Origin: an uncultured Chloroflexota bacterium
GTDB taxonomy: Bacteria; Chloroflexota; Dehalococcoidia; Lucifugimonadales; UBA826
Length of the DNA: 32,473 nucleotides
NCBI GenBank assembly: GCA_913045625.1
Contig: CAJWPE010000012.1
Span: forward strand, 1 to 32,473
Direction of reading: 5' to 3'
Below, piece by piece: positions 28,126 to 32,473 of this stretch (the stretch's first letter is position 1; each line of letters starts with the position of its first letter). The notes beneath the pieces are model-generated. The model saw only the letters and a program-made list of their open reading frames with translations. It searched no databases and was not told the DNA's origin. A program made the translations under genes and the position numbers.

Positions 28126-28443
28126 ATGGATAATAAAACACTTCAAAATTTAATTGTTAATCAAATGTCGTCTGGTGTTAATTTGCGTCCTTTAGCGGGA
28201 TTTAAAATGGATTTTTCTGCAAACCCGGAATTTCAAAAAGTTTTTTTTGCGGCAAGTTGTGAATGTGGAACTTCGGCTTTATTAAGTTTGGAAGTGTCTA
28301 TTCATAAGTCAGACTATGAAATTAATAATGCATTACCGTCATTAATTGAAAAATTACAAAATCAAGAAAAATCTTTTCGTAGCATGAATTGCACAATGCA
28401 CGGTATGATGAGGAAAGGTTTTATAGAAGACAAAGATGAGTGA
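28126..28443 (+). CDS. Small conserved-looking protein, first gene of the putative selenoprotein operon
   Basis: 105 aa from ATG 28126, with CEC and NCTMH Cys/His positions; its TGA stop overlaps the next ORF's GTG (GTGA), suggesting translational coupling. Confidence 0.65.
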   Translation: MDNKTLQNLIVNQMSSGVNLRPLAGFKMDFSANPEFQKVFFAASCECGTSALLSLEVSIHKSDYEINNALPSLIEKLQNQEKSFRSMNCTMHGMMRKGFIEDKDE

Positions 28444-28910
28444 GATTTTTTATGCCTAAAGATATGTCAGAATCAGATGCTTTAGAAAGTGCTCAAAAAT
28501 TTTCTGAACGATACGTTTCTAAGGGCCCTTATGAATTTTTTCCAGAACAAGAAGTTGTTAGTGAAGTTCAGAAAGGTCTAGCTGAAAATCATAGAAATAA
28601 AGGATATCGTTATTGTCCTTGAATGCCATTAAGTGGCGATCCAGTTGAGGATCGTAAGAAAATTTGTCCATGTGAACGTCATCATGAGGACATAGCTCGC
28701 GATGGATTTTGTATATGAATGTTTTTCGTTAGCGAAGAGTTTCTTCGCAAGTATGAATCTGGAGAAGAATTTTCACAAACTATTGATGAAGCTGTGCCTC
28801 TTGGTACTGAACTTTTTGAGAATACTGGTGGTAAAAAAGAATTTAACCAACGACGTAGATCTGAAGATCAAAAAGATGAAGAAGATACAGAAGACAAAAA
28901 AGACAATTAG
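28440..28910 (+). CDS. Ferredoxin:thioredoxin reductase catalytic (beta) chain homologue, selenoprotein with two Sec (UGA 28620-28622 and 28716-28718)
   Basis: One frame (codon starts divisible by 3) from 28440 to TAG 28908-28910 when two UGAs are read through: ...QEVVSEVQKGLAENHRNKGYRYCP[U]MPLSGDPVEDRKKICPCERHHEDIARDGFCI[U]MFFVSEEFLRKY... This matches FTR architecture CPC...CPC...CxC with UGA at the second Cys of the first motif and the last Cys of the third. Alternative start ATG 28452. Confidence 0.88.
28637..28654 (+). promoter_or_regulatory. Putative bacterial SECIS hairpin for FTR UGA-1
   Basis: CGATCC-AGTTGA-GGATCG, 6 bp perfect stem, G in first two loop bases; loop starts at 28643, 21 nt after the last base of the UGA. 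Confidence 0.6.
28732..28748 (+). promoter_or_regulatory. Putative bacterial SECIS hairpin for FTR UGA-2
   Basis: GCGAAGA-GTT-TCTTCGC, 7 bp perfect stem (or 6 bp with loop AGTTT); loop starts at 28739, 21 nt after the last base of UGA 28716-28718. Confidence 0.65.
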
Positions 28911-28945
28911 AGTATAATGATTTCATATACTTCAAGGAGTTTTCA

Positions 28946-29194
28946 GTGAGTGATCCAGTAAGAGTTTTTACCTCAGTAGGTTGAGGCCCTTGTCACATGG
29001 TGAAGGTGTATCTTTCACGAAATAATATCGAATATTCAGAGCATAATGTCTCCCAAGATCGTGATTCGCTTAAAGAATTAGTATCTATGGGCTTTAGAAG
29101 TACTCCGGTTACAGTAATTGGCGACGAAAATGTTGTTGGTTATAGTCCAGCCAAACTAGAACAAGCATTAAAAAATTCTGGATATATAGAATAA
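28946..29194 (+). CDS. Glutaredoxin-family selenoprotein with UGPC redox motif (Sec at UGA 28982-28984)
   Basis: GTG start with AAGGAG 6 nt upstream: MSDPVRVFTSVG[U]GPCHMVKVYLSRNNIEYSEHNVSQDRDSLKELVSMGFRSTPVTVIGDENVVGYSPAKLEQALKNSGYIE; glutaredoxin fold motifs including TPVTVI; UGPC replaces CxxC. Confidence 0.9.
29000..29018 (+). promoter_or_regulatory. Putative bacterial SECIS hairpin for Grx UGA
   Basis: GTGAA-GGTGTATCT-TTCAC, 5 bp stem (extendable by G-T/G-C), loop beginning GGU; loop starts at 29005, 21 nt after the last base of UGA 28982-28984. Confidence 0.6.
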
Positions 29195-29730: not shown

Positions 29731-31314
29731 TTGATATCATCTAGATTAAAATTATTCTTATCTAAATATAATTTTGTTGCTAACCCCAAGAATGACATTC
29801 TATCGGGATTAACAGTAGCTCTAGCTCTTGTTCCTGAAGCTATTGCATTTGCTTTTGTAGCGCATGTTGACCCTCTTGTAGGTTTGTATGCAGCTTTCTT
29901 TGTAGGTTTTATCACTTCTGTTTTTGGTGGCAGAAGCGGAATGATTTCAGGTGCTACAGGGGCTATGGCGGTGGTAATGGTTAGTTTAGTGATCGTACAT
30001 GGTGTGGAGTATCTTTTTGCTACTATTATTCTTACTGGATTAATACAAATTTCTGCAGGTTTATTACGATTAGGTAAATTTATCAATTTGGTTCCGTACC
30101 CAGTAATGTTAGGGTTTGTAAACGGACTGGCTATCGTAATTTTTCTTGCACAATTAGGACAATTTAAAGAAACTTCAAAAACTGATGCTATCGTTCATTC
30201 TGAAGACCATCTTTCTCATAATGCTTTAGATGTGGTTTTTTCAGGTGGATGGCTCAACCAGAATGCTATGATCACGATGATGATTCTTACAGTAATTACT
30301 ATGGGAATAATTATTGCTTTACCTAGAATCCCACGAATTGGAAAAATTATTCCAGCACCTCTTGCATCTTTAATAATTGTGACACTTGTGGTGATCGGTT
30401 TTAATCTTGACACCAAATCAGTTGGAGACTTAGCTAGCTTATCTGGTGGGTTACCACCATTTCATTTTCCTGAAGTTCCTTTGAATGTATCTACATTTCT
30501 AATAATTATTCCTTATGCTTTTACACTTGCAGGGATTGGATTAGTCGAAAGCCTACTTACTTTGACACTTATAGATGAGATTACTGAAACTAAAGGTGAT
30601 CCTGACTTGGAGTGTTTTGGACAGGGGTTAGCAAATTTCGTATGTGGTTTTTTCAAAGCAATGGGAGGATGTGCAATGATTGGTCAATCAATGATCAATA
30701 TGGAATCTGGTGGAAGAGGAAGATTGTCAGGTTTTACTGCTTCATTAGCATTATTAGCATTTGTATTATTTTTATCAGGACTAATAGAAATGATTCCTTT
30801 AGCGGCATTGACTGGAATAATGATGATGGTAGTAATAGGTACCTTCGCATGGCCTTCATTTAAGCTTTTGTTGAAAATTCCAAGAGAAGATGCAATAGTC
30901 GTTATTTTAGTTACTGTAGTTACAGTAATGCAGGATCTTGCTGTGGCCGTTCTTGTAGGGGTGATATTTTCTTCTCTAGTATATGCATGGAAATCATCTA
31001 GGCAGATTAAAGTTAGTAACCTAGAAGAATCAGATCAACAATCTCAAATTTTTACATTACAAGGGGACTTGTTTTTTGCTTCAATATCAAGATTTAAAGA
31101 AATTTTAAATCCCAATCGATACAAGACTGATGAAGTTTTTCTAGATGTAAGTCAGGCAAATCTTTTTGATCATTCTGCGTTAGAAGCATTAGATGCTCAA
31201 ACTTCAAAGTTTAAAGAAGCAGGCAAAACTCTTAATTTGAAAAATGTTCAACCTGAAGCTCTTAAAATCATAGAGAAATCAAAAACTGTCTATCATATTA
31301 ATGTGACAAAATAG
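29731..31314 (+). CDS. SulP-family anion transporter with C-terminal STAS domain
   Basis: NDILSGLTVALALVPEAIAFAFVAHVDPLVGLYAAF...GGRSGMISGATGAMAVVM; STAS-like FTLQGDLFFASISRFKEIL...VFLDVSQANLFDHSALEAL. TTG start. Confidence 0.93.
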   Translation: MISSRLKLFLSKYNFVANPKNDILSGLTVALALVPEAIAFAFVAHVDPLVGLYAAFFVGFITSVFGGRSGMISGATGAMAVVMVSLVIVHGVEYLFATIILTGLIQISAGLLRLGKFINLVPYPVMLGFVNGLAIVIFLAQLGQFKETSKTDAIVHSEDHLSHNALDVVFSGGWLNQNAMITMMILTVITMGIIIALPRIPRIGKIIPAPLASLIIVTLVVIGFNLDTKSVGDLASLSGGLPPFHFPEVPLNVSTFLIIIPYAFTLAGIGLVESLLTLTLIDEITETKGDPDLECFGQGLANFVCGFFKAMGGCAMIGQSMINMESGGRGRLSGFTASLALLAFVLFLSGLIEMIPLAALTGIMMMVVIGTFAWPSFKLLLKIPREDAIVVILVTVVTVMQDLAVAVLVGVIFSSLVYAWKSSRQIKVSNLEESDQQSQIFTLQGDLFFASISRFKEILNPNRYKTDEVFLDVSQANLFDHSALEALDAQTSKFKEAGKTLNLKNVQPEALKIIEKSKTVYHINVTK

Positions 31315-31325
31315 GTTAATTTGTC

Positions 31326-31341
31326 AGCGTTGTAGAACGCT
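31326..31341. terminator. Possible hairpin between convergent genes
   Basis: AGCGTT-GTAG-AACGCT perfect 6 bp inverted repeat just after the SulP stop, overlapping the stop of the minus-strand gene; no clear T-run. Confidence 0.3.
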
Positions 31342-32473
31342 ATTGATTGGGAGCGTTTCTAAAGTCAGTATGACCTTCAGCTCCAAGCCACCATTGAATT
31401 GTCATGTTGTTACCCGAGCTAGAAACAAAACGCATAACTCCATAACGGTTGTTCTGTTTAAATAAGATGAGACCATCATTTTGGGCTCCTCCGCTAGAGC
31501 TAACATCTTCAGAGCATATTCCAACGTTGGGTCCCCTTGAGAATGAGAATGTAGATACATTCCCTAATTCACTGAAACTATCAAAACCGTCATATGAACC
31601 GTTGTGGTAGGTCATATTTCCGTTACAGCCGTGTCCGTTAGGGTTGACTCGAGCGATGTCTACATGCCCATGACCTCCATCATTGTAATAATAGAAATAA
31701 CCTTTCTTAGTTCCTCCTGAAGACCACCACATTCTTGATCCTGTGCCGATGCTGTAGCTGCCGCTTTCAGCCATCACAGTGGTTCCGTGAGTCCCATGCC
31801 AGTTAGCAGACGCGGGAGTAGGAGTAGGAGTAGGAGTTGGAGTAGGTGTAGCAGTTGGTGCCGGAGTAGGAGTAGGGCTAGTAGTTCCAGATACAATTAT
31901 AGTTGCTACAGATTTATTTCCAAATTCAGAATTTGCACTTGTGCCAGTGCATGAATATTGTAGGCTTCCACCAAATTGCATGTAATAGACACCCGGTTCG
32001 TTGGGAGCATTAAAACTTACAGTTTTATTTACATTTCCACCTCCTTGTGTACCACCACTTCTTAGACAATTTTCAAAAGTGTCAGGGATTTTCACATAGA
32101 ACTGAACAATACATCCAGGGCAATATGTTGCATGGGTATATGTCATAGAAATTGCGGCAGTCATTGCTGCATTTGGATTCACAGTAATTACATTTGAACC
32201 CGAATTATTTAAGTTAACTTGATTCCAGGTAGTACTTCTACCTGCATAGCTGACAGAGTGAGGTAAAGAATTAGAATTGTATCCTTGTTGGTTTGGGACA
32301 GGTGTAGCAGTAGGTACGGGAGTGGGAGTGGGTGTGGGGCTAGGAGTAGGTGTAGCAGTTGGTGCCGGAGTAGGGCTAGGAGTAGGGCTAGGAGTAGGAG
32401 TAGGAGTAGGAGTAGGTGTAGGTGTTTGGGTAGCTGTAGGGATTATAGAAAAATTAGGGTTAGGTGTAGAACT
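31340..32473 (-). CDS. Secreted/surface protein with Pro-Thr-rich linkers, 5' end beyond window
   Basis: Frame stays open from TAG at 31340-31342 to the window edge: [68 protein letters not shown]...[29 protein letters not shown]...[30 protein letters not shown]... Confidence 0.8.
31812..31880. repeat. Low-complexity repeat encoding a TPTPTP linker
   Basis: Repeated ggagta/ggtgta hexamers on + strand, (PT)n on minus translation. Confidence 0.8.
32296..32435. repeat. Second, longer low-complexity repeat encoding a TPTPSPTP linker
   Basis: Repeated ggagta/ggtgta/gggcta hexamers. Confidence 0.8.

Follow-up and report, generated by a model that had tools for sequence, protein, structure and literature searches.

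In ferredoxin:thioredoxin reductase (FTR), ferredoxin feeds a [4Fe-4S] cluster, residue 87 of the catalytic chain is stabilised by this cluster and residue 57 attacks the disulfide of the target. Selenoprotein forms of the enzyme have been on record since 2008, when Zhang and Gladyshev described two FTR selenoprotein sequences in GOS data; one of them carries two predicted selenocysteines (Sec) exactly at both redox-active Cys, together with a predicted SECIS element (PMC2398784). A family with two Sec is listed under NF041072 in the selenoprotein table of a 2026 review (PMC13188914), and the NCBIfam equivalog of that number bears the name 'FtrB family double-selenoprotein'. The gene described here lies in a window of 32,473 nucleotides (the whole stretch of DNA that was analysed) and had been picked out by a sequence-only reading, which knew of no described FTR with both active-site residues replaced by Sec. 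The novelty of that claim was lost on comparison with these sources. Sec at the same two residues was published in 2008, the review entry gives the family two Sec, and the window protein passes the NF041072 model; therefore, the double-Sec FTR is already known.

The window protein shares with the GOS sequence JCVI_READ_1093012271142 the two Sec at the redox Cys (PMC2398784). In that account the GOS protein is known from a single read, whereas the window FtrB is placed in Chloroflexota, in a conserved cassette and with one hairpin per UGA. Compared with NF041072 (FtrB_double_U), the match covers the whole length, the two Sec are shared and no difference was seen, so nothing sets the window protein apart from the rest of the family. 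What the present analysis adds is that the family is tied to SAR202-type genomes and that its members cluster together as one group of the sampled tree. The features of the locus are as follows.

28126-28443, + strand: small uncharacterised protein of 105 aa, first gene of the cassette, with invariant CxCGT (C45, C47) and MxCxxH (C89, H92)
28452-28910, + strand: FtrB-family double-selenoprotein, catalytic chain of a ferredoxin:disulfide reductase, 152 aa when read through (PF02943, NF041072)
28620-28622, + strand: TGA codon 1, predicted Sec at the Synechocystis FTR Cys57 position (1DJ7 alignment; in 35/35 fetched loci)
28636-28655, + strand: predicted bacterial SECIS-type hairpin for UGA1, GCGATCC-AGTTGA-GGATCGT (7-bp stem, +16 to +35)
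28716-28718, + strand: TGA codon 2, predicted Sec at the Synechocystis FTR Cys87 position (1DJ7 alignment; in 35/35 fetched loci)
28732-28748, + strand: predicted bacterial SECIS-type hairpin for UGA2, GCGAAGA-GTT-TCTTCGC (7-bp stem, +16 to +32)
28946-29194, + strand: putative Sec-containing glutaredoxin (Grx), GUGPCHMVK, 82 aa, start GTG (PF00462, E=2.4e-12)
28982-28984, + strand: in-frame TGA, predicted Sec as the first residue of UxxC in the glutaredoxin (the Grx gene has a TGA in 45/45 double-Sec FtrB genomes)
29000-29018, + strand: predicted SECIS-type hairpin of the Grx, GTGAAGG-TGTAT-CTTTCAC (stem at +18 to +36)

The FtrB gene is a single frame running from ATG 28452 to the TAG at 28908-28910, and only the TGAs at 28620-28622 and 28716-28718 interrupt it. 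The ATG at 28452 is the likely start; an alternative GTG at 28440 overlaps the stop codon of the gene upstream. When both TGAs are translated as U, the frame reads ...GYRYCPUMPLSGDPVEDRKKICPCERHHEDIARDGFCIUMFFVSEEF.... The read-through protein was matched by Pfam FeThRed_B (PF02943) with E=4e-22, and by NF041072 over its whole length with 227.4 bits against a cut-off of 160, which places it in the equivalog. In the HMMER alignment with the Synechocystis FTR catalytic chain (1DJ7), U61 falls on residue 57 and U93 on residue 87, while Cys is kept at positions 55, 74, 76 and 85, i.e., at all four [4Fe-4S] ligands. These four cluster Cys are invariant across the FtrB family alignment. Thus the sequence-only reading was borne out in its description of the sequence and of one frame broken by two TGAs alone, in its exact mapping of the UGAs and the cluster Cys, and in the FTR beta-chain family search that it had proposed. 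The AlphaFold model of FtrB, built from 24 close relatives, was poor (pLDDT 52) and was not used.

The order to which the genome belongs was represented by 250 genomes, of which 45 have a gene above the NF041072 cut-off; all 45 copies contain exactly two TGAs, which excludes chance as their source. The two TGAs occupy the same columns throughout the fetched loci. One further genome (G545) has the FtrB gene in two pieces. The named relatives are SAR202 cluster and Dehalococcoidia records, and in the sampled tree the proteins with Sec at both sites (UU) form one group with a support of 99/98. At the same two columns other Chloroflexota carry Cys/Cys, Cys/Sec (L048, L049, L051-L054) or Sec/Cys (L027); the Cys/UGA alternation that the earlier reading had proposed to look for was seen at both positions. 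In the tree of these sequences, which has several long branches and an unsure deep placement, Cys and Sec must have been exchanged more than once. As an observation of its own, the single-Sec catalytic chains of these other Chloroflexota, with Sec at 87 only in the six former loci and at 57 only in L027, provide natural intermediates for a comparison.

Each UGA of FtrB is followed by a potential hairpin, with stem arms GCGATCC/GGATCGC for UGA1 and GCGAAGA/TCTTCGC for UGA2. A G is present in the apical loop of both, and the spacing after each UGA is fixed across the family. Among 30 distinct sequences, the UGA1 hairpin had on average 6.7 of 7 positions paired, as against 4.49 (SD 0.21) when synonymous codons were shuffled within each gene; for UGA2 the corresponding values were 6.9 of 7 and 4.78 (SD 0.19). 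The shuffle is a fair control because the amino acids at the hairpins are invariant or nearly so. Cys/Cys homologues showed only 2.1/7 pairs at the UGA1 offset and 2.0/7 at the UGA2 offset. The single Sec/Cys homologue had 6/7 pairs after its UGA and 2/7 after its Cys. The six Cys/Sec homologues had only 3.8/7 pairs after their UGA when read at the offset of the UU proteins, so that their SECIS element must be different or lie at another place. Changes in the stem pairs were mostly one-sided (G-C to G-U), and compensatory double changes were rare. As the changes are one-sided and the sequences are related, the case for the hairpins is one of synonymous constraint and not of covariation. Taken on these terms, the pairing is strong evidence for two separate predicted SECIS elements in the UU FtrB family, one per UGA.

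The genome to which the window belongs, that of a marine, SAR202-type member of the Chloroflexota, is a 1.42 Mb draft of 96 contigs, with an estimated completeness of 94.6% and a contamination of 7.5%. All four genes of the Sec machinery that the sequence-only reading had named as a check were detected above their cut-offs: selA with 518 bits (cut-off 268), selB with 358 bits (242), the tRNA-Sec gene selC with 67.6 bits (47) and selD with 375 bits (125). The selD gene (L022, G000:C18:15966-16886) itself has an in-frame TGA near the N-terminus (CAGUASK) and would encode a Sec-containing selenophosphate synthetase.

Two other explanations of the TGAs were considered. UGA might have changed its meaning to a standard amino acid (Cys, Trp or Gly) with no selenium involved, and the presence of three UGAs close together in two adjacent genes would fit such a change. 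On the other hand, TGA is the stop codon of 3 of the 34 window genes taken as real and Trp is encoded by TGG (121 codons), so there is no call for a reassignment across the genome; moreover, the Sec machinery is complete, the UGAs sit on the catalytic Cys columns, and the hairpins that follow them are missing from the Cys/Cys homologues. We consider reassignment extremely improbable. Hardly more credible is the view that FtrB is a pseudogene or that its TGAs arose from faulty sequencing or assembly, for which one could cite the fragmentation of the draft into 96 contigs and the split copy in G545. The identical pair of TGAs in 45 independent genomes and in named SAR202 records, as well as the invariant residues around both, speak against it, and here the earlier reading had judged correctly. 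Decoding of UGA as Sec in FtrB is thus very well supported by the machinery, the conservation of the two TGAs, and hairpins that are absent from Cys/Cys homologues and exceed the synonymous-codon null. With the same evidence and the position of the UGAs in the catalytic columns behind it, the proposal that both residues of the redox disulfide are Sec was upheld, and we regard it as highly probable that the window protein is an FtrB family (NF041072) member with Sec at both sites.

The gene downstream of FtrB is preceded by a Shine-Dalgarno-like AAGGAG at about 28933-28938. Its product belongs to the Grx domain family, with UGPC in place of the usual motif, i.e., the UGA replaces the first Cys of CxxC. 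Its hairpin, in which the first arm is GTGAAAG in most relatives, had on average 6.96 of 7 positions paired among 27 distinct sequences, compared to 4.39 (SD 0.20) in the codon shuffle. Sec-containing glutaredoxins with UxxC are a known selenoprotein class (table of PMC13188914), and the window protein resembles them in its PF00462 match. It differs from the known ones in that no NCBIfam model which it matched gave a score above its cut-off, the best being TIGR02196 and TIGR02194, and in accompanying the double-Sec FtrB in 45/45 genomes. The scores below the NCBIfam Grx cut-offs suggest that a precise family model may be lacking.

For the small protein upstream, no accepted Pfam or NCBIfam match was obtained, the Pfam matches being at chance level, and the profile search found no solved relative. 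The AlphaFold model was confident (pLDDT 85), and Foldseek with this model returned nothing significant from the PDB or BFVD. With its CxC and CxxH motifs, the 105-aa product is probably a metal-site protein.

The three genes occur together. In the sample of 250 genomes, the Sec-Grx accompanies all 45 double-Sec FtrB genes and the small protein 44 of them. Beyond these genomes the small protein was found in G545 only, and a TGA-bearing Grx, at the threshold used, in G545 and G512 only. The hypergeometric values for the co-occurrence are near 1e-46, which overstates independence, as the genomes are related; co-inheritance within one order partly reflects shared ancestry. The Grx gene lies directly 3' of FtrB in most loci, the departures being G471, where it is near FtrB on the opposite strand, and G501, where it is about 16 kb away. 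No description of a cassette of FtrB, Grx and the small protein was found in the accessible portions of the open-licence literature, texts on selenoprotein operons included, which is weak evidence of absence, and a search of this literature for SAR202 and selenocysteine gave nothing relevant. The fixed partnership of FtrB with a putative Sec-Grx and an uncharacterised, metal-site-like protein thus seems to be unreported.

The sequence-only reading had called the enzyme a ferredoxin:thioredoxin reductase. Its assignment to the FTR catalytic-chain family stood, while the thioredoxin-specific name is probably too narrow, given the undetected FeThRed_A, the closest solved structures and the constant Sec-Grx neighbour. 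All cluster and catalytic columns of the Synechocystis and plant catalytic chains (1DJ7, 2PUK, 7BZK) align with FtrB, but Cys57 and Cys87 are replaced by predicted Sec, and the FeThRed_A (PF02941) variable chain, which is part of the classical heterodimeric FTR, had no match in the window genome at its 94.6% completeness. The closest solved sequences were not the chloroplast enzyme but 4tpu ('Rubredoxin') and 7pwe ('Ferredoxin-thioredoxin reductase subunit B'), which we take to be ferredoxin:disulfide reductases of archaea and bacteria. They share the CxC...CxC...CxC pattern with FtrB, although both of their catalytic positions are Cys. As FeThRed_A was undetected, 'ferredoxin:disulfide reductase' is the safer name. 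A classical heterodimer reducing thioredoxin, with the neighbouring Sec-Grx not being its substrate, would agree with the homology of the catalytic chain to the plant and cyanobacterial FTRs. We find it unlikely, considering that no variable chain was matched, that 4tpu and 7pwe are the best PDB matches and that the Sec-Grx is present in every double-Sec FtrB genome. The lack of FeThRed_A and the best solved relatives make a stand-alone ferredoxin:disulfide reductase the more likely type of enzyme, as judged from sequence comparison.

For such a stand-alone enzyme the following route may be proposed. Each Sec of FtrB would be inserted at its UGA by means of its own SECIS hairpin. Reduced ferredoxin would give electrons to the cluster one at a time; the Sec at 87 would adjoin the cluster and the Sec at 57 would attack the substrate. 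Between turnovers the resting Sec pair may be a diselenide or a pair of selenolates. The UGPC glutaredoxin encoded next to FtrB would, with its selenenylsulfide (Sec-Cys) bond, be the likely and most economical substrate; once reduced, it could hand the reducing power to target proteins, if electrons flow in this direction. The small CxC...CxxH protein may be a dedicated partner, e.g., an electron donor, a scaffold or a target. We think that a relay is somewhat favoured in which electrons pass from ferredoxin to the 4Fe-4S cluster, on to a diselenide FtrB and finally to the Sec-glutaredoxin. For the wider proposal, that FtrB is at the heart of a redox module, so far undescribed, with three genes and three Sec in SAR202-type Chloroflexota, leading from ferredoxin over 4Fe-4S and diselenide to selenenylsulfide, we see the chances as about even. 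If true, such a module would be the selenium counterpart of the ferredoxin/thioredoxin chain. An iron-sulfur disulfide reductase with an active-site diselenide would, if true, be chemically unusual and would probe why the cost of two Sec is worth bearing for an enzyme. The link to the Sec-glutaredoxin and the small uncharacterised protein provides a concrete candidate substrate for FtrB.

Some other features of the window were recorded. A SulP-type sulfate permease family protein with a STAS domain is encoded at 29731-31314 (+ strand), and a tRNA-Asp gene lies between the cassette and this gene. Hexamer tandem repeats (GGAGTA), VG-rich in one frame, occur at 31815-31876 and 32300-32425, in and beyond the ORF at 31340-32182.
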